A DNA stretch of 64,000 nt from Streptomyces sulfonofaciens (GTDB taxonomy: Bacteria; Actinomycetota; Actinomycetes; Streptomycetales; Streptomycetaceae): positions 62,001 to 126,000 of the forward strand of contig NZ_BNCD01000012.1 of NCBI RefSeq assembly GCF_014656295.1, written 5' to 3'. Below, piece after piece: positions 10,991-39,414 of this stretch. The notes under the pieces were generated by a model, which worked only from the letters and a program-made list of their open reading frames with translations, ran no database searches and was not told the origin of the DNA. A program made the position numbers and the translations under genes. The first letter of the stretch is position 1; every line of letters begins with the position of its first letter.

Positions 10991-11853
10991 CGCCCTCGTC
11001 CACCCCCGCACACCTGGCTCCCGCGCAGGAGCCTCTGCCGGGACATTTCCGCGGACTCTTCGACGACGCGGCGCTGTTCCCACCCGGAAACGCCCCCATG
11101 ACCACGGCGGTCACGCGTCACTTCGAGCACCGGACAGCCTGGTACGGCCCCATGGTGGGGCCCTTCGTCTGCACCGACCGCCGGTGGCGCGAACTGGCTT
11201 ACGGACTCGCCGTGCCGGGTCCCATGTTGCCGTTGTCGCTGGTGGTGCGGGAGTGGGAGGCGCTGCCCGAGACGCCGGCCGCCGTACGGGCCCATCCGCG
11301 AGTCCGGCTTGAGGCGGTGGAGTTCCTGCTGGAACCCGCGCACTCGGGCTACGGTCCGGCGTACTTCGCCGCCGAGCTGCCCCGCACAGCGACCGTCTAC
11401 GCCGAGGTGCCCCTTGGTGCGGAAGTGCCCGCGGACGTGCGGATGGCAGCCGAGGCCGGGTGGCGCGTCAAGTTCCGTACGGGCGGTACCGAGCCAGGGG
11501 CCTTCCCCAGCGAGTCGGCCCTGGCCAAGGGTCTGGTGCAGGCCGTTCGGGCGGGAGTTCCCTTCAAGCTCACCGCGGGCCTGCACCAGGCCATCCGCCA
11601 CACCGGCGCCGCCACCGGGTTCGAGCATCACGGCTTCCTCAACGCACTCGCGGCCACCGCCGCGGCCGGTGACGGCGCGGACGCACACACCGTCGCCCGC
11701 GTACTGGCCGACAGAACGGCCGACAGGGTTCGAGCCGCCTGCACACCGGCCCGCCTCGCCGCCGCACGCACCTGGTTCACCTCCTTCGGCACCTGCAGCA
11801 TCGACGAACCCATGACCGGCCTCGGCGCTCTGACACTGATCGGAAAGGACTGA
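10987..11853 (+). CDS. Conserved protein of unknown function inside the homogentisate operon
   Basis: The protein has 288 residues and is translationally coupled to hmgA (ATGA overlap) and to fahA (1-bp gap). No named domain is recognised. Conserved-looking segments are GLFDDAALFPPGNAP near the N-terminus, VEFLLEPAHSG in the middle, and a C-terminal block KFRTGGTEPGAFPS then GVPFKLTAGLHQAIRHTG and FEHHGFLN with many charged and His residues. The alternating strand/helix pattern suggests a barrel-like enzyme. By position it occupies the slot of maleylacetoacetate isomerase, the one pathway step for which no recognisable gene is present. That role is inference; it could equally be an accessory protein. 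Confidence 0.8.
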   Translation: MTPSSTPAHLAPAQEPLPGHFRGLFDDAALFPPGNAPMTTAVTRHFEHRTAWYGPMVGPFVCTDRRWRELAYGLAVPGPMLPLSLVVREWEALPETPAAVRAHPRVRLEAVEFLLEPAHSGYGPAYFAAELPRTATVYAEVPLGAEVPADVRMAAEAGWRVKFRTGGTEPGAFPSESALAKGLVQAVRAGVPFKLTAGLHQAIRHTGAATGFEHHGFLNALAATAAAGDGADAHTVARVLADRTADRVRAACTPARLAAARTWFTSFGTCSIDEPMTGLGALTLIGKD

Positions 11854-11854
11854 C

Positions 11855-13138
11855 ATGCCGACCCGCCCGACCACACGGCCGAGCCGCTCATGGGTGCCCA
11901 TGCGCCCGGACCACCCCTTCGGACCGCAGACCCTGCCGTACGGCTCGTTCACCGGACCTGACAGCCTGCCGCACGTCGGTGTGGCGATCGGGGACCACAT
12001 CCTGGATGTGACGGTGGCCTGGCGGATGCTGGCCGTCACCGACGAGGACCTCTTCGCCGCGGGCTCACTCGACCGGTTCCTCGCGGCCGGCCCGGCGACC
12101 TGGAGCCACGTCCGGACCGCACTCATCGAGTGGCTCTGCGACGCCTCGTACCGGGAATCCGTATCCCCGTTCCTGCTGCCCGCCCACGACGTGTCGATGC
12201 TGCTGCCGTTCACGGTCGCGGACTACGCCGACTTCTACGCCTCCGAACACCATGCCGCGAATCTGGGCAGGATGTTCCGGCCCGGTTCAAAACCCCTGAC
12301 GCCGAACTGGAAGCACATGCCGATCGGCTATCACGGCCGGGCCGGGACCGTCGTGGTGTCCGGCACCCCGGTGATCCGCCCCCGAGGGCAGCGGCGCTCC
12401 GCGGCGGGGGACGTCACCGTCGGGCCCAGCCTGCGGCTGGATATCGAAGCGGAACTCGGCTTCGTCGTCGGCGTGCCGACCGCCATGGGGGAGACCGTCG
12501 CCCTCGACGACTTCGACAGCCACGTCTTCGGAGTCTGCCTGGTCAACGACTGGTCGGCCCGCGACCTTCAGGCCTGGGAGTACGTCCCGCTCGGGCCGTT
12601 CCTCGGCAAGTCCTTCGCCACGTCCGTCTCGCCCTGGGTCGTCCCGCTGTCCGCTCTCCGGTCGGCACGCGTCGCTCCCCCGCCCCGGGATCCGAAACCG
12701 GTCCCCTACCTCGACGACAGCCAGGAGGCCGCCTGGGGCCTGGACGTACGGCTGGAGGTCGCTCTCAACGGGACCACGATCAGTGAGCCGGGTTTCGCCC
12801 AGATGTACTGGACGGCAGCGCAGCAGCTCGCCCACATGACGGTCAACGGCGCCCGACTGCGCACCGGGGACCTCTTCGCTTCGGGCACCATCAGCGGCCC
12901 CACCAAGGACAGCCGCGGTTCCCTCATCGAGCTGACGTGGAACGGTCTCGAACCCCTGACCGTGCCCGGAGGCCGCCGCACCTTTCTGGAGGACGGCGAC
13001 GAGGTGGTCATCACCGCCACCGCTCCCGGCCCGGCCGGCACCCGTGTCGGCCTGGGCGAGGTCAGAGGCACCGTGCTGCCACCGCCGGCACCGCCCGCCC
13101 GGTCAGGGGCACCATCCGCCCATGAAGGGACCCGATAG
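11855..13138 (+). CDS. fahA: Fumarylacetoacetase
   Basis: The protein has 427 residues. It hydrolyses fumarylacetoacetate to fumarate and acetoacetate, the last step of tyrosine breakdown. An N-terminal SH3-like domain ([20 protein letters not shown]) precedes the FAH barrel with [18 protein letters not shown], the acidic metal site in [11 protein letters not shown], and [19 protein letters not shown] then [14 protein letters not shown], which is diagnostic of true fumarylacetoacetases. The C-terminus has [13 protein letters not shown]. The proline-rich last 20 residues are an extra tail. The stop overlaps the next GTG by one base (TAGTG). Confidence 0.95.
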
Positions 13139-13962
13139 TGGACAAGGTTGTTTCCTCCGCCGGTGAAGCCATCGCCGGCATCGGCCACCGGGCGTCCTTG
13201 GCGGTGGGCGGATTCGGACTCTGCGGAATCCCCAGCGCACTGATCCACGCCCTGCACGAGGCGGGTGTGGGCGATCTGGAGATCGTCTCCAACAACTGCG
13301 GTGTGGACGACTGGGGCCTGGGGATTCTGCTCCGTGACCGCCGCATCCGCAGGGTCGTCGCTTCGTACGTGGGAGAGAACAAGGAGTTCGCACGGCAGTA
13401 CCTGGCTGGCGAGCTGGAGGTCGAGCTCACCCCGCAGGGCACCCTCGCGGAACGACTGCGGGCCGGCGGCGCGGGCATCCCCGGCTTCTACACCCTCACC
13501 GGCACCGGCACGCAGGTCGCCGACGGCGGCCTGCCGTGGCGCTACCACCCCGACGGCAGCGTCGCCGTGGCCTCCCCGCCCAAGGAGACCAGGGACTTCC
13601 ACATCGAGGGGAACACCCGCAGCTACGTGCTGGAGGAAGCCATCGTCGCCGACTTCGGCCTCGTCCGGGCCTGGAAGGGCGACCGCCACGGCAACCTCGT
13701 GTTCCGCCGCAGCTCCCGGAACTTCAACCCCCTGTGTGCCATGGCCGGACGCGTCACCATCGCCGAGGTCGAGCATCTGGTGGAGCCCGGTGAACTGGCC
13801 CCGGACGCGATCCACCTCCCCGGCATCTACGTCCATCGCGTCCTGCCCCTCACACCCGAACAGGCTGGAGACAAACGCATCGAGCGCCGCACCAACAGGC
13901 AGCGCCCGGCCCCGGACGGGCTGTCCGCGGCGGGCGACGCCCCACAGGACAGGAGACCGTGA
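13138..13962 (+). CDS. scoA: 3-oxoacid CoA-transferase subunit A
   Basis: The protein has 274 residues from a GTG overlapping the fahA stop. This is the alpha subunit of a family I CoA transferase. Seen are [16 protein letters not shown] (the CoA-binding glycine turn near the N-terminus), [16 protein letters not shown], and a [19 protein letters not shown] segment typical of SCOT-like enzymes. With subunit B it should move CoA from succinyl-CoA to the acetoacetate released by FahA, feeding acetoacetyl-CoA to thiolysis. A 40-residue polar C-terminal tail exceeds the usual length of about 230. It overlaps scoB by 4 bp. Confidence 0.92.
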
Positions 13963-32817: not shown

Positions 32818-33888
32818 ATGCCGGCCGAGACGAAGCGCACCCACCCGGGTCCCATGAGCGGCGACGGCCGAAGCCCGCTGCCGCTGCCCGCCAACCGGCC
32901 GGCGAACCGTCCGTACCGGGGAGGCAGCGGGATCGCCCGGTTCCGCGGTATCGACCTGCCCGACGACCGTCGCCCCGAGGACTTCCTGGCCTCGACGACC
33001 GAGGTCTTCGCGGGCGGGGGCGTCGGGCTCACCGTCCTGCCCGACGGGCGGACGCTGCGCGCGGCCGTCGAGGAGGACCCGGCGACCTGGCTCGGGCCCG
33101 CACACGTCCAGCGGTTCGGCACGGACACGAAGCTGCTGGTGAAACTACTGAGCACGGACGAGCGGCTGTTCGTCCACTACCATCCCGATGCGCGTTTCGC
33201 CGAGCGCCACCTGGGCCGGGACACCGGCAAGACGGAGGCGTGGATCGTCCTGGACACCGTCGGCGACGGGTACGCGCTCATCGGCTTCACCGACGACGTC
33301 ACCGCGTCCCGGGTCGAGTCGTGGGTGGCCCGCCAGGACCGGGACGAGATGCTCGCGGCCATGCGGAAGGTGCCGCTGCGACCGGGGGACACGCTGCTCG
33401 TCCCGGCCGGGACCCCCCACGCGATCGGCCCGGGGGTGACGCTCGTCGAACTCCAGGAGCCGACCGACCTCTCCCTGTTGCTGGAGTACGAGTCCTTCGG
33501 GCTGACGGTAGACGAGGCGTTCCTCGGCCTTCCGCCCGCCACCGCGCTCGCGGGACTGGACCGGGGCGCGCTGGACGACACCCGGCTCGCCGGCCTGCGC
33601 AACGCCCCCGGCGGGGGCTCCGGGGCCGCGGAGGAACTGCTGACGCGTGGTGCCGCACCGTTCTTCCGGGCCCTCCGCCGCAGGGTCGACGGCACCGGTC
33701 ACATCGACCCGGGCTTCGGTGTACTCGTCGTCGAGGAGGGCGAGGGATGGCTCGAAGCACACGGACAGCGGCTCCCGCTGACCACCGGCGCCTGCGTCCT
33801 GCTCCCGTACGGGGCGGGCCCGATCACGCTCGGCGGGCAGCTCTCCGCGATCCACTGCGCACCTCCCGCGCCGGACGCGCCCCACTGA
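32818..33888 (+). CDS. manA: Type I mannose-6-phosphate isomerase (cupin)
   Basis: The protein has 356 residues; the start is ATG 32818, with ATG 32854 (MSGDGRSPLPL) as an alternative. It interconverts mannose 6-phosphate and fructose 6-phosphate using zinc. Seen are the zinc-site segment VHYHPDARFAERHLGRDTG followed by KTEAWIVLD, where the GKTEAW motif is diagnostic of class I enzymes. Next come GDTLLVPAGTPHAIG with a metal-ligand His, and a second cupin repeat at the C-terminus. It is somewhat shorter than the common forms of about 390 residues. It stands alone and is followed by a strong bidirectional terminator. A sugar-metabolism or inducible carbohydrate role is likely. Confidence 0.8.
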   Translation: MPAETKRTHPGPMSGDGRSPLPLPANRPANRPYRGGSGIARFRGIDLPDDRRPEDFLASTTEVFAGGGVGLTVLPDGRTLRAAVEEDPATWLGPAHVQRFGTDTKLLVKLLSTDERLFVHYHPDARFAERHLGRDTGKTEAWIVLDTVGDGYALIGFTDDVTASRVESWVARQDRDEMLAAMRKVPLRPGDTLLVPAGTPHAIGPGVTLVELQEPTDLSLLLEYESFGLTVDEAFLGLPPATALAGLDRGALDDTRLAGLRNAPGGGSGAAEELLTRGAAPFFRALRRRVDGTGHIDPGFGVLVVEEGEGWLEAHGQRLPLTTGACVLLPYGAGPITLGGQLSAIHCAPPAPDAPH

Positions 33889-34125: not shown

Positions 34126-35355
34126 TCACCATGTGACCGGTACGCCCTCGGGAACGCGGAAGGCCACGTCCCGCCGCCACCGCACCCGGTCGGCGGGCAC
34201 GGCGAGCCGCACCTCGGGAGCGGCCCTGCCCGCCAGCACCCCCACCACCGCCCCCAGTTGCATCCGCGCCAGACGGTTGCCGGGACAGTGGTGCTTTCCG
34301 TGGCTGAAGCCGAGGTGGGGGCCGTCGGCGCGGGACGGGACGAAGCTGTCCGGATCGGGGAAGGCGGCCGGGTCGTGGTTGGCGGATTCCAGCGAGAGAA
34401 GAACGCACTCCCCGGCCCGGACGGTCATGCCGTCGATCTCCACGTCCCTGGTCGCCACGCGTTTGGCGCCGCCGGTCGCCATGGGGGTGTGGCGCAGCAG
34501 CTCCTCCACGGCCGCCGGGACGAGGGCGGGATCCGCACGCAGCGCCGCCAGCGCCTCGGGGTGCCGCGCCAGCGTCACCAGGGCGTTGGCCAGGAAGCTG
34601 GACGAGGTGCGGTAGCCGGCGATGAAGAAGGACGTGGCGAGTTCGGCCAGGTCGTCCGGGCGCAGGCGGCCTTCGCCGTCCGCCTGGGCCAGGCGTTTGA
34701 CCAGGTGCTCGCCGGGAGCGTCGCAGAGGTGCGGCAGGCGGTCGAGGAAGAACCGGTGCACGGCGTTGATCGCGGCGGTCTGCTCCTGCCGGGTGGGGCC
34801 CCGCCAGGTGAGGATCGTGTCGCACCACGCGTCCAGCCGCTCCCGCGCGTCCACCTCGAGCGGGCCGAGCAGCACGCGGCAGGCCACCGCGAAGGGCAGG
34901 CGTACGGCGAGTGCGGGGTAGAGGTCGGCGGGCGGGCCGTGGGCGATCAGCTCCGCCATGGTGTCCTCGGCCTGTCCGCGCGTCCACTCCTCGTGCCGGC
35001 GAACGGCGCGCAGCCCGAGGGCGTCGGCCATCAGCTTGTGCAGCCCGACTTCCCGCAGTCTCGTCACGGAGTCACCGCTGCCGCCCTCGGCGCGCAGCGG
35101 GACCGGTTCCTGGCGTGGCGCGTCCGGCTCCAGAGCCGCCGCCATGCTCAGCCCGGGCTCGGCGAGGAGTCTGCGCACCACGTCGTAGCGGGTGGCGAGC
35201 CAGACACGGTCGCCGGTCACGGTGACGACCGGGTGCAGCGGTGCGCGCGCGGCACGCAGGTGTGCGTAGCGCGGCGAGAGCTCCTGTCCCCAGTCGCCGA
35301 AGGGGAAGGCGAGGGGCGGGCGGCCGGGCCGTGTCCGGTCGAACGGTTCGGTCAC
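34126..35355 (-). CDS. Cytochrome P450, tailoring enzyme of the cyclodipeptide cluster
   Basis: The protein has 409 residues. The heme-binding loop is GFSHGKHHCPGNR (Cys357); the helix-K motif ELLR is at 285-288; the I-helix reads FFIAGYRTSSS (Thr250). The length and motifs are those of bacterial class I P450s that need separate ferredoxin and reductase, none of which is adjacent. The start ATG overlaps the stop of the cyclodipeptide synthase gene (ATGA), so the two proteins are made together. By analogy with CYP121 in Mycobacterium and other CDPS-linked P450s, it probably couples, hydroxylates or cross-links a diketopiperazine. The exact reaction cannot be deduced. Confidence 0.93.
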   Translation of the reverse strand: MTEPFDRTRPGRPPLAFPFGDWGQELSPRYAHLRAARAPLHPVVTVTGDRVWLATRYDVVRRLLAEPGLSMAAALEPDAPRQEPVPLRAEGGSGDSVTRLREVGLHKLMADALGLRAVRRHEEWTRGQAEDTMAELIAHGPPADLYPALAVRLPFAVACRVLLGPLEVDARERLDAWCDTILTWRGPTRQEQTAAINAVHRFFLDRLPHLCDAPGEHLVKRLAQADGEGRLRPDDLAELATSFFIAGYRTSSSFLANALVTLARHPEALAALRADPALVPAAVEELLRHTPMATGGAKRVATRDVEIDGMTVRAGECVLLSLESANHDPAAFPDPDSFVPSRADGPHLGFSHGKHHCPGNRLARMQLGAVVGVLAGRAAPEVRLAVPADRVRWRRDVAFRVPEGVPVTW

Positions 35356-36119
35356 GGCCGCTCCTCCCCGGGCCGGGGCGCGTCCGCCGCGGGCGGCCGC
35401 TCGGCGTCCTCGCGGGGCCGGACGAGGGCGAACGCCTGGTGGGGCGAGGCGAACAGGCTCCCGAAGCCGAGCGGGACGAGGGGGAGCATGCGGTGGTAGA
35501 CGTGCACCGACGACGGCACCCCCAGAATGCCCGGTGTGTCCGTGACCAGCGGCATCTCGGCCATCAGATACCGCATGCCCTCCTCGACCTGGGCCGGCGT
35601 GGGTGCGGTCGGGTCGAAAGCGGAGGACCTGGCCCTCAGTTGTGAGGCCAGCGCGCTCTCGGTGGCCCGGCGGAAGACGCTGCGGACCGCCGCGTCACTC
35701 TCGACCGTCTCCTCGCAGCGGGCGAGGAGTTCCCGGTACCGGGGGTGGTGGACGAACTCGGACAGGGTGCGGACGTGGTGCCGCTCCGCCGGGGCGCCGC
35801 TGGCCTGCCAGGCCCGCGCGATACGGCGGCAGGTCTGGCGCGTGGCGCGCTGGGCCTGTATGTCCGCCTGTTCGGGTGTGGCGCCCAGAGCCCTGTAGGT
35901 GTGGACGAGCGCGCTGTCGGCGACGATCGCGTCCACCCGTGCGAAGACCCCGTCGGCCCAGCGCAGCAGACGGCTCAGCCGCGCCTGGCTGAAGTAGCCG
36001 TTGCCGGGGCTCACGCCGATCAGGACGTGGTCGGCCCGGGCGTAGATCGCCCGGCAGTTGGCGGTGTACGGCTCGACGGTGAACTCTGCCGGATCGCTCT
36101 CTTCTGCGGTGTGATCCAT
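35352..36119 (-). CDS. tRNA-dependent cyclodipeptide synthase (NYH subfamily)
   Basis: The protein has 255 residues from ATG 36119, with GGAGAG at good spacing. It uses two aminoacyl-tRNAs to form a 2,5-diketopiperazine through an acyl-enzyme on a serine. The hallmark LIGVSPGNGYFS places the nucleophile at Ser37 and Asn40, exactly the AlbC numbering. Tyr184 and Glu188 in RYLMAEMP match AlbC Tyr178/Glu182, and VYHRM provides the Tyr-His pair (208-209, AlbC 202-203). Asn40/Tyr/His define the NYH subfamily, whose members often incorporate Phe, Leu, Tyr or Trp. The product is unknown. It forms a two-gene operon with the P450. Confidence 0.93.
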   Translation of the reverse strand: MDHTAEESDPAEFTVEPYTANCRAIYARADHVLIGVSPGNGYFSQARLSRLLRWADGVFARVDAIVADSALVHTYRALGATPEQADIQAQRATRQTCRRIARAWQASGAPAERHHVRTLSEFVHHPRYRELLARCEETVESDAAVRSVFRRATESALASQLRARSSAFDPTAPTPAQVEEGMRYLMAEMPLVTDTPGILGVPSSVHVYHRMLPLVPLGFGSLFASPHQAFALVRPREDAERPPAADAPRPGEERP

Positions 36120-36609
36120 GTCTCTCCTGCGCATCGATGCGGAGAACCCGGCCCGTGGCGCGCACCGGCGGCCGAGTCCGCGGACGGCTCTCACACCACG
36201 TAAGGGCTCGAACGCACAGCGTTGCAACGCGCTTGCGGTGGCCCGCGGAAGCGCGCTCCTCCGCCGGGAGCATCCGGCTCACCCCTCGGCTGCCACAGCA
36301 AGCGCCCGGAGCACACGGGCATCACCTCGTGCGGGCCGCGGCACCGCCCCGGCCTCGTCGCGGACCCTTCGAACGCCGCCGCCGGCGCCGGCACCTGCTC
36401 CCCGGGAGTCCGCAGCATGTCCGAAACGCTTAAGCGGCGCTGCCCCGCACCCGGGCGGAACGCTCCACTCCCGTCACTCGCGCCCCGGCCCCCTCGACCA
36501 GGATCGATCCGCCCCGACGGGGTGCCGAGCCGGCGGACCGGGGGCCCTGCGACCGCTCCGCAAGGCGGATCGACCGCTCTTGACGGCCTCTTGACTGACC
36601 GGGACCGTC
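36120..36609. other. Intergenic region between the CDPS cluster and the riboswitch
   Basis: No gene was found in these 490 bases. They separate the divergent cyclodipeptide operon (minus) from the riboswitch-controlled transporter (plus) and must hold the CDPS promoter. I could not find a convincing -35/-10 pair for it. Confidence 0.4.
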
Positions 36610-36638
36610 TTGCGGCTGCAACCGGACGTGCATAGCCT
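36610..36638 (+). promoter_or_regulatory. Putative vegetative promoter of the riboswitch transcript
   Basis: TTGCGG (36610-36615) and TAGCCT (36633-36638) are separated by 17 bp, matching the TTGnnn / TAnnnT pattern of the main actinomycete sigma factor. Transcription would start near 36645, directly at the 5' edge of the cobalamin riboswitch. Confidence 0.45.
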
Positions 36639-36639
36639 G

Positions 36640-36850
36640 ACGAGGCCGTGGTGTTCGGGAAGACCGGTGGCGGCTCCGTGCAGCGGAGCCGAGTCCGGGG
36701 CGGCCCTCGCCACTGTGATCGGGTCCCGCGCCACGCCATGGCGATGGGAGACCGCGTTCCATTACGGCCACTGGCCGGCCCGCAGTACGGGCGGCCGGGA
36801 AGGCGGAGCGCCGGTGCACCCGTAAGCCAGGAGACCGGCCACGGCATCTC
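36640..36850 (+). promoter_or_regulatory. Cobalamin (B12) riboswitch
   Basis: The conserved B12 box AAGCCAGGAGACCGGCC lies at 36824-36840, preceded by GGTGCACCCGTAAG. The 5' part has GGTGTTCGGGAAGACCGGTG (near 36650-36670). The middle has the GCGGCCCTCGCCACTGTGA element (near 36698-36717), and GGGAAGGCGG follows at about 36797. The order and spacing match the class-I cobalamin aptamer. The element ends about 35 bp before the GTG start of the transporter, so when B12 binds it most likely hides the ribosome site or stops transcription. The gene is therefore expected to be on when cobalamin is scarce. Confidence 0.88.
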
Positions 36851-36883
36851 AGGAAACGTCCACGAGGTGCTGGAGTTCAGTCG

Positions 36884-38011
36884 GTGACACACCCTTCCTC
36901 TGCTCGAACAACCCTTTCGCCCGCGACCGGCGGGCCCGCCCCCCTGCTCCGCTGGCGGCGCGAGGACACCGTGCGCACGGTCGTACTGCTCGCCGCGGTC
37001 GCCGGGCTGCACGTCGTCGCGTTCGGGGTGCTGCTTCTGCTGGTGGTGCCGGGGCACTACGAGATCGGGTCGAAGACATTCGGTTTCGGGCTCGGCATCA
37101 CCGCCTACACCCTCGGCATGCGGCACGCCTTCGACGCCGACCACATAGCCGCCATCGACAACACCACCCGCAAGCTCATGGCCGACGGCAAGCGGCCGCT
37201 GTCCGTGGGCTTCTGGTTCGCCCTCGGGCACTCCAGCGTGGTGGTCGTCCTGTCGGCCCTCGTCGGCGGCGGTGCCGCACTCGCCGGAACACTGCTCGAC
37301 GACGACTCGGCGACCCACCAGACGCTCGGCGTCGTCGGTACCACCGTCTCCGGCTCCTTCCTCTACCTCATCGCCGCGTTCAACCTGGTGGCGCTCGCCG
37401 GGATCTGGCGGGTCTACCGCTCGATGCGCTCGGGCGACATCGACGAGGAGCGGCTCGAACGGCACCTCGACGAGCGCGGGTTCATGAACCGCATCCTCGG
37501 CCGCTTCACCCGGTCCGTGTCCCGGCCCGGCCAGATGTACCCGCTCGGCTTCCTCTTCGGCCTCGGCTTCGACACGGCCACGGAGGTCACGCTCCTGGTA
37601 CTGGCCGGAGGCGGCGCCGCAGCGGGCATCCCGTGGTACGCGATCATCGTTCTGCCGCTGCTCTTCGCGGCGGGCATGAGCCTGTTCGACACCCTCGACG
37701 GCACGTTCATGAACGTCGCCTACCAGTGGGCCTTCTCCAACCCGGTCCGCAAGGTGTACTACAACCTCACCATCACGGGGCTGTCCATCGCCGTCGCGTT
37801 CGTCATCGGCACCATCGAACTGGTCGGCGTGCTTCACGAGAAGCTGCACCTCGACGACGCCGCCACGAGCTGGATCGCGGACATCGACCTGGACAATGTC
37901 GGCTATGTCATCGCGGGCCTCTTCGTCGTGGTGTGGGCCCTGGCCCTGGGCTACTGGAAGGTGGCAGGCGTGGAGAAGCGCTGGGCGGCACGGGTGGCCG
38001 AGCGAAGCTGA
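36884..38011 (+). CDS. NiCoT-family cobalt/nickel permease under cobalamin control
   Basis: The protein has 375 residues from a GTG at 36884. About eight membrane helices are predicted. The family signature HAFDADHIAAIDN (HX4DH) in helix II binds the metal, and FALGHSSVVV, GLGFDTATEV and FDTLDGTFMNVAYQWAF are the other conserved NiCoT (HoxN/NixA) motifs. The upstream cobalamin riboswitch argues that it imports cobalt for B12 synthesis rather than nickel for urease or hydrogenase. It is monocistronic and ends at a strong hairpin. Confidence 0.95.
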   Translation: MTHPSSARTTLSPATGGPAPLLRWRREDTVRTVVLLAAVAGLHVVAFGVLLLLVVPGHYEIGSKTFGFGLGITAYTLGMRHAFDADHIAAIDNTTRKLMADGKRPLSVGFWFALGHSSVVVVLSALVGGGAALAGTLLDDDSATHQTLGVVGTTVSGSFLYLIAAFNLVALAGIWRVYRSMRSGDIDEERLERHLDERGFMNRILGRFTRSVSRPGQMYPLGFLFGLGFDTATEVTLLVLAGGGAAAGIPWYAIIVLPLLFAAGMSLFDTLDGTFMNVAYQWAFSNPVRKVYYNLTITGLSIAVAFVIGTIELVGVLHEKLHLDDAATSWIADIDLDNVGYVIAGLFVVVWALALGYWKVAGVEKRWAARVAERS

Positions 38012-38191: not shown

Positions 38192-38740
38192 ATGTTGGAT
38201 CCCGTCCGGAAGCACCCCTACCCCGACGCCCTCCGCCCGGAGGAGGCACCTGCACCGCACGCACTGCTCGCGCCGGTGATCGGGTTCCTGGGCACCTGGG
38301 TCGGCCGGGGCCGCGGCGAGTACCCGACGCTCGACGAGGGTTTCACCTACGCGCAGGAGGTCACCTTCCGTCATGACGGACGCCCCTTCCTGCAGTACGA
38401 GGCGCGTGCCTGGCTGCTCGACGAGGACGGCACCCCGCTGCGGCCGTCGGCCCGCGAGAGCGGCTGGTGGCGGTTGCAGCCCGACGGGCGCCTTGAGGCG
38501 TTGATCACCCAGCCCACCGGTATCGCGGAGATCTCCACCGGCCGCGCGGGCGGCAATGCGGTCGACCTCACCACCGATCAGGTCGCCCTCGCTCCCACCG
38601 CCAAGGAGGTCAACGCCACCCGCCGCCGTTACACCCTGACGGACGGGGACATGCTCGACTTCGTCCACGACCTCGCCGCGGTCGGCCAGCCTCTGCAGCA
38701 CCACCTGTCGGCACGTCTCCACCGCGGGGGCGCAAGCTAG
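38192..38740 (+). CDS. FABP-family heme-binding protein (nitrobindin, peroxynitrite isomerase)
   Basis: The protein has 182 residues with AGGAGG upstream of ATG 38192. The nitrobindin motif [14 protein letters not shown] opens the beta barrel, and [10 protein letters not shown] at the C-terminus carries the His that binds heme iron. Members bind ferric heme and isomerise peroxynitrite to nitrate. It has its own promoter space and lies convergent to the flavin reductase gene, with a bidirectional terminator between. No link to the isonitrile cluster is suggested by orientation. Confidence 0.88.
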
Positions 38741-38865: not shown

Positions 38866-39372
38866 TCAGGCGGACGTGTCGATCCGTGCGGGCCCACGGT
38901 CGAGCACGGAGTTGAAGGCACCGCGATAGAAGAGCAGCGGCTGGGCGTCGGGCCGCCGGGCGGCATGTTCGACGCGCCCCAGGAACACGAGGTGGTCGCC
39001 GCCGTCGTGGTCGGCCCACGGCGAGCAGAAGAGGGTCGCAAGCGAGCCGCTCAGGGCGGGGGCCAGGCCCCCGGGCGCGGGCTGCCACGGGGGAGGAGGC
39101 GCGGCGGCCCCCAGCCTTCCCGCGAACCGGAGCGCGAGGTCACGCTGCTCCTCGGACAGCACGTTGACCGTGAACGGGCGGCCGGGCAGCAGACGGGCGG
39201 CCTTCGATGCCCGGTCGAGGCAGACCAGGACGAGCGGCGGGTTCAACGAGACGGAGGTGAAGGCGTTGACAGTGGCACCGTGGAGCGTCCCGCCCACCGC
39301 GCAACCGACGACGGTGACGCCGGTGGCGAAGTGGCCGAGGCAGGCGCGGAGTTGCTGTGGATCGATCGCCAC
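38866..39372 (-). CDS. Flavin reductase (HpaC-like), likely partner of the HpaB-type hydroxylase
   Basis: The protein has 168 residues from GTG 39372, which has AAGGAG six bases upstream; a GTG at 39393 is less well placed. The flavin-reductase-like split barrel shows LGHFATGVTVVGC, NAFTSVSLNPPLVLVCL and FTVNVLSEEQRDLALRFAG, standard motifs of the HpaC/RutF group that supply reduced flavin. It is the last gene of the minus-strand operon and would deliver FADH2 or FMNH2 to the HpaB homologue 4 kb upstream. Separation of the two components within one operon is unusual but functional. Confidence 0.88.
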   Translation of the reverse strand: MAIDPQQLRACLGHFATGVTVVGCAVGGTLHGATVNAFTSVSLNPPLVLVCLDRASKAARLLPGRPFTVNVLSEEQRDLALRFAGRLGAAAPPPPWQPAPGGLAPALSGSLATLFCSPWADHDGGDHLVFLGRVEHAARRPDAQPLLFYRGAFNSVLDRGPARIDTSA

Positions 39373-39414
39373 CGTGTCTCCTTGTCGTGGCACGGGAACG
39401 GATGGTGTTCCATC

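Follow-up and report, generated by a model that had tools for sequence, protein, structure and literature searches.

Chemical synthesis of stereodefined indole-indole bonds is difficult, and bacterial diketopiperazine (DKP) dimerases form such bonds. The naseseazine and aspergilazine systems each consist of a cyclodipeptide synthase (CDPS) gene and a P450 gene, and their P450s, NascB, NzeB/NasF5053 and AspB/NasS1868 (CYP1190B), are referred to here as the Nas group. The radical mechanism of NascB and NzeB (PMC6200733, PMC7954767) is the model for the P450 chemistry proposed below. Ferredoxins from spinach or E. coli support NascB. TtpB1, from the tetratryptomycin pathway of Saccharopolyspora antimicrobica, is a dimerase of cyclo(Trp-Trp) (cWW) (PMC7954767). 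Rv2275 and CYP121, which form mycocyclosin, are likewise encoded by a CDPS-P450 two-gene cluster. Actinomadura oligospora ATCC 43269 has a 'pathway 2' made up of CDPS2-Aoli43269, a P450 and the cyclodipeptide oxidase CDO2 (PMC7487605). CDPS2-Aoli43269 'synthesized exclusively cWW', and the P450 gene is nearby; cWW was a very poor substrate for CDO2, for which the authors suggest that the P450 may act first (PMC7487605).

The window (the whole stretch of 64,000 nucleotides of Streptomyces sulfonofaciens analysed here) contains a CDPS-P450 pair. Judged by its sequence, the pair is an untested relative within the known CDPS-P450 dimerase pathways and is not unprecedented. The two genes probably form an operon in which the CDPS makes cyclo(Trp-X), with Trp favoured as X, and the P450 couples two such molecules to a dimeric Trp diketopiperazine. 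Near-identity to a characterised pair, which the earlier note had named as a refuting result, was not found in the sequences and open-access literature searched.

Gene pair and flanking region

Positions of the pair, its key codons and its neighbours are given in Table 1. Sequence inspection finds the CDPS stop and the P450 GTG start overlapping as GTGA; the overlap reported in the earlier note is there, and the two genes are predicted to be translationally coupled. GC3 is 0.92 and 0.91 for the two genes, and neither frame has an internal stop or a TTA codon. Promoter and terminator consensus scans gave no matches.

Table 1. Positions of the gene pair, its key codons and neighbouring features in the window
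Feature	Position	Strand	Basis or remark
CDPS gene	35352..36119	(-)	255 aa, NYH subfamily; ATG at 36119, stop TGA at 35354-35352
P450 gene	34126..35355	(-)	409 aa, Trp-diketopiperazine dimerase lineage; start GTG at 35355
AGGAGAG, likely CDPS ribosome-binding site	36122..36128	(-)	sequence
GGAGGAG, likely P450 ribosome-binding site, within the end of the CDPS gene	35361..35367	(-)	sequence
CDPS codons 37-40 (nucleophile S37 to N40)	36000..36011	(-)	AlbC alignment; coordinates counted from ATG
CDPS codons 184-188 (Y184, E188)	35556..35570	(-)	alignment to AlbC Y178, E182
CDPS codons Y208-H209 (NYH signature)	35493..35498	(-)	alignment to AlbC Y202-H203
P450 Cys357, haem ligand (Cys348 of NasF5053)	34285..34287	(-)	alignment
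P450 Arg249, I helix AGYRT (Pro240 in NasF5053)	34609..34611	(-)	alignment
P450 Ala398, at the place of NasF5053 Phe387	34162..34164	(-)	alignment
Cupin/mannose-6-phosphate-isomerase-like gene	32818..33888	(+)	
Cobalamin riboswitch (Rfam RF00174)	36632..36857	(+)	57.7 bits against a cut-off of 31.5
NicO nickel/cobalt transporter gene	36884..38011	(+)	
THAP4-like haem-binding protein gene	38192..38740	(+)	
Flavin reductase gene	38866..39393	(-)	

The pair is flanked on one side by a cupin/mannose-6-phosphate-isomerase-like gene and on the other by a NicO transporter gene. A comparison with the flanks of 40 relatives shows that the NicO side is common, and shows nothing else. The cobalamin riboswitch lies directly upstream of the NicO gene; many relatives also have parts of this region. 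Genes for a THAP4-like haem-binding protein and a flavin reductase are also near the pair; both are absent from the related loci. Besides the CDPS and the P450, no gene is common to the window and the related loci. A Fer4_15 family search found no such ferredoxin on the contig of the pair and five elsewhere in the genome, in keeping with the earlier description of a minimal pair that lacks an adjacent redox partner. Since NascB works with foreign ferredoxins, the lack of a neighbouring partner is ordinary.

Cyclodipeptide synthase and its predicted precursor

The CDPS scores 219 bits over the full profile of Pfam PF16715 (cut-off 27) and 227 bits over that of NCBIfam TIGR04539 (cut-off 45), both far beyond chance. 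Its S37, N40, Y184, E188 and Y208-H209 align with AlbC S37, N40, Y178, E182 and Y202-H203, giving the signature SNYEYH at the catalytic and NYH positions. These residues are invariant in an alignment of 20 sequences, save for H209, which is nearly invariant. The AlphaFold model (pLDDT 87) has AlbC and Rv2275 as its best PDB folds, and the best PDB sequence match is Rv2275. The window CDPS is the sole CDPS in its genome and is predicted to be an intact NYH-type enzyme; alignment and both profiles agree with the earlier note on this point.

The signature differs in some other Streptomyces CDPSs. In those of genomes G153 and G031 (loci L007 and L009), Tyr-Gln replaces Tyr-His (SNYEYQ); they have the pocket motif LGMPLFLA and form a separate clade of their own. 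A third (genome G285) has Glu for Gly35 of pocket P1 and Tyr-Asn for Tyr-His, and adjoins a partial P450 match; it is possibly decayed or misaligned.

The AlbC positions behind the published pocket motifs were inferred as 33, 35, 65, 67, 119, 185, 186 and 200 for P1 and 152, 155, 156, 159, 204, 206 and 207 for P2. Residues 22-237 of the AlbC reference sequence agree with the PDB sequence. Two checks were made on these positions. One A. oligospora CDPS (L071) gives LGVAIFLC and HFVGKLP, the exact published cFY motifs of CDPS 66, and the S. aureocirculatus CDPS (L041) gives LGIPLFFV, as in the cWA/cWP enzyme CDPS 73, with five of seven P2 letters. For the fourth P1 residue the published text says position 119; the motif checks point to 67.

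The pocket motifs of the window CDPS are LGIALLVH (P1) and ASASRLP (P2). Gondry et al. linked an Ile-Ala or Val-Ala pair in the third and fourth places of P1 to Trp, the exception being one Val-Ala enzyme that prefers Phe (PMC5816076). In the Trp-accepting groups the third P1 residue is Ile or Val, and the fourth is Ala in cW2X and Pro in cW1X (PMC5816076). LGIALLVH has the Ile-Ala of cW2X, yet its place in the tree is on the Pro-bearing side, and its positions 6-8 are near neither group.

The CDPS tree places the window in a clade (support 99/97) with four others, from Streptomyces sp. JHD 1 (L039), Microtetraspora sp. NBRC 13810 (L040), A. oligospora (L044) and Actinomadura sp. J1-007 (L045); every one adjoins a P450 of the dimerase lineage. 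A. oligospora carries two CDPSs, L044 and L071. L071 has the cFY motifs, so L044 is, by exclusion and motif, CDPS2-Aoli43269; an assignment of the clade member as the cFY enzyme CDPS 66 was rejected, CDPS 66 being the other copy. It follows that the sole tested CDPS of this clade makes cWW, and the phylogeny proposed in the earlier note has thus grouped the window enzyme with a characterised cWW synthase. The two enzymes are only 49-50% identical (48.5% by tblastn), and their pockets differ: the window has Ala67, Val186 and His200 in P1, and ASASRLP against TRVAHLP in P2. Given this low identity and these differences, Trp in P1 is likely by analogy with relatives, and cWW is the leading candidate for the product rather than an established one.

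P450 lineage, active site and proposed reaction

The nine best PDB sequences for the P450 are all Trp-DKP dimerases: entries for NasF5053/NzeB, AspB and NascB, with about 50% identity across the whole protein and E values of about 1e-111. TtpB1 comes next after the Nas group at about 1e-79, about 100 bits further away, and CYP121 is far behind at 1e-45. With the AlphaFold model (pLDDT 81, 14 sequences in the alignment), Nas/Nze/Asp enzymes again rank first (Z 44-46, 47-49% identity), and CYP121 and the nucleobase-coupling PtmB are lower (Z about 38, about 30% identity). The fold comparison covers the best 50 matches listed; TtpB1 is not among them, which is no evidence against likeness to TtpB1. 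In the P450 tree, the window, its relatives and the Nas group share one 100/100 branch, opposite the P450s found beside other Streptomyces CDPSs. Sequence identity to CYP121 and nucleobase-coupling P450s is about 30%. For the gene pair, the NCBIfam profiles for CDPS-associated P450 (TIGR04538, 60 bits, cut-off 500) and cyclodityrosine synthase (NF052540, 160 bits, cut-off 300) both score below cut-off. By sequence, tree and fold, the window P450 is in the DKP-dimerase (Nas/Nze/Asp) lineage and is not CYP121-like. The comparison suggested in the earlier note thus sets it with the dimerases, away from CYP121 and the nucleobase-transfer enzymes.

The ExxR motif is present, and the APRQEP loop common to Nas dimerases is retained. 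The equivalents of NasF5053 E73, L77, D85, G286, K289 and F388 are kept. Two Trp-DKP contacts are changed: Q65 is Leu and F387 is Ala. In NasF5053, the side chain of F387 lies against the proline portion of the extended substrate (PMC7721796); with Ala at this position, a bulkier second residue would probably fit. The PDB has a structure of the NasF5053 F387G mutant (8ho1). On the I helix, Arg249 stands in place of Pro, and none of the assayed Nas dimerases has such an Arg. The positions that steer the reaction in NasF5053, 65, 86, 284 and 288, are L, S, A and A in the window; 284 and 288 are those of NascB, and 65 and 86 (Leu and Ser) are unlike all three enzymes compared in PMC7721796, so that the linkage is not predictable.

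In the proposed pathway, the CDPS would take Trp from Trp-tRNA into P1, hold it on Ser37, add a second aminoacyl group from another tRNA and release cyclo(Trp-X). X would most likely be Trp; Pro, Ala and other residues are the further candidates. Electrons for the P450 would presumably come from the cell's own ferredoxins. If it works like NascB and NzeB, the P450 would abstract hydrogen from a ring or amide nitrogen of one cyclo(Trp-X), and the radical would couple to the indole of a second molecule through a C-C or C-N bond. Dimerisation, like Trp in P1, is predicted from the relatives. The earlier note expected a cross-linked, dimerised or hydroxylated product, which was too open: the P450 groups with dimerases, and the dimerised option is the one retained. 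It also held the product to be unpredictable. This stands for the second amino acid and the linkage; the placement of the P450 with DKP dimerases and of the CDPS with a cWW synthase makes the precursor class and reaction type predictable.

Related pairs, distribution and alternative readings

Four pairs close to that of the window were found by scanning named genomes, and they are those of the CDPS clade above. Their CDPSs are 47-54% and their intact P450s 55-62% identical to the window proteins. The A. oligospora P450 (61.5% identical) directly follows its CDPS, as in the window, and has the same Arg and Ala signature residues. A. oligospora differs in having the cyclodipeptide oxidase, a nitroreductase-like protein with a DUF6092 subunit; no DUF6092 subunit is found in the window's genome. 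Among the related loci, an oxidase next door is found only in the two Actinomadura. Actinomadura sp. J1-007 has two CDPS-P450-oxidase clusters of this subclade (L045/L069 and L070), about 110 kb apart; the P450 gene of each has frame breaks that may stem from errors in sequencing.

Tree support for the P450 subclade is moderate (82/84), yet the grouping is backed by two positions common to its members. Arg is found at NasF5053 position 240 in all six subclade P450s intact there (Pro in the Nas group, Ser in others), and Ala at position 387 in five of five whose frame reaches it (Phe in the Nas group). A published assay was not found for any subclade P450 in the open-access literature. With this pair and its relatives the Nas lineage gains a small subclade in which two active-site changes are fixed and whose precursor, to go by the one CDPS tested, is a different one; the CDPS partners of the Nas dimerases are only 35-40% identical to the window CDPS. 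Tentatively, and with more doubt than confidence, the subclade can be seen as a functionally distinct dimerase branch, in which the Arg-for-Pro change and the opened F387 pocket would be adaptations to cWW, giving a linkage or oligomer unlike those of Nas, Asp and Ttp enzymes; this covers the window, Streptomyces G297, Streptomyces sp. JHD 1, Microtetraspora and the two Actinomadura P450s. Its members are a small set of enzymes to test for new linkages, and they provide a natural experiment in the roles of the I-helix residue and F387. The subclade is also relevant to the point raised in PMC7487605 about the A. oligospora oxidase, whose near-inactivity on cWW may mean that the P450 comes first.

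A P450 at E <= 1e-80 occurs in three of 393 Streptomyces genomes, namely that of the window, G031 and G297. G031 carries a Nas-type pair with a P450 50% identical to the window's. Among 395 class and 395 family genomes, no members were found besides G031 and the window's own genome. In plasmid records all P450 matches were below 60% identity, with about 36% for the matches listed.

Coupling of two cyclo(Trp-X) molecules with X as Trp is the preferred reading, and the alternatives depart from it in precursor, reaction or activity. A rather unlikely alternative differs in X only: the CDPS would make cyclo(Trp-Pro) or cyclo(Trp-Ala), and the P450 a dimer resembling naseseazine or aspergilazine. 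Characterised synthases in the sister clade have these cyclodipeptides as products (CDPS 73 makes cWA/cWP; CDPS 74 and 75 make cWP), and the window P2 starts with the small residues A, S, A, as do the published cWP motifs ARAVMVP and ASVGKID; the exclusive cWW product of the one tested enzyme in the window's own clade, and Ala where F387 contacts Pro, argue against it. Hydroxylation, aromatisation or an intramolecular bond of the mycocyclosin type are reactions known for other CDPS-linked P450s, and the I-helix Arg is unlike the assayed dimerases. Such an outcome is nonetheless improbable: identity, tree and fold all disfavour it, CYP121 (about 30% identical) being far behind in score and fold, and the CDPS is without the cYY motif VGVTMLFN of a CYP121-type pair (L028). 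Another reading has the P450 couple guanine or hypoxanthine to cyclo(Trp-X), as GutD or PtmB do. Two-gene clusters are known in which cWW is coupled to a nucleobase, and the fold matches of the P450 include, lower down, PtmB with cWW. This reading too is improbable, as identity to PtmB and to P450s beside cWW-type CDPSs is about 32%, against about 50% to the dimerases, and the nucleobase-type P450s are on the opposite side of the tree with different I-helix and loop sequences.

The least probable reading, and a far-fetched one, is that the pair is a relic which no longer gives a product. The pair type is rare in the genus, and one of the J1-007 copies has the P450 frame breaks noted above. The nearest P450 to the window's, that of G297 (79% identical; L035, about 11251-13300), is an orphan in a genome without a CDPS; an insertion sequence with a transposase lies directly upstream, and all that is left of a CDPS is about 70 bases similar to its 3' end. 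Against decay in the window itself, both frames are open, the catalytic residues are complete and the ribosome-binding sites are good. Between the window and G297 P450s, dN is 0.135 and dS 0.367, which suggests, at the sequence level, constraint over most of their common history.
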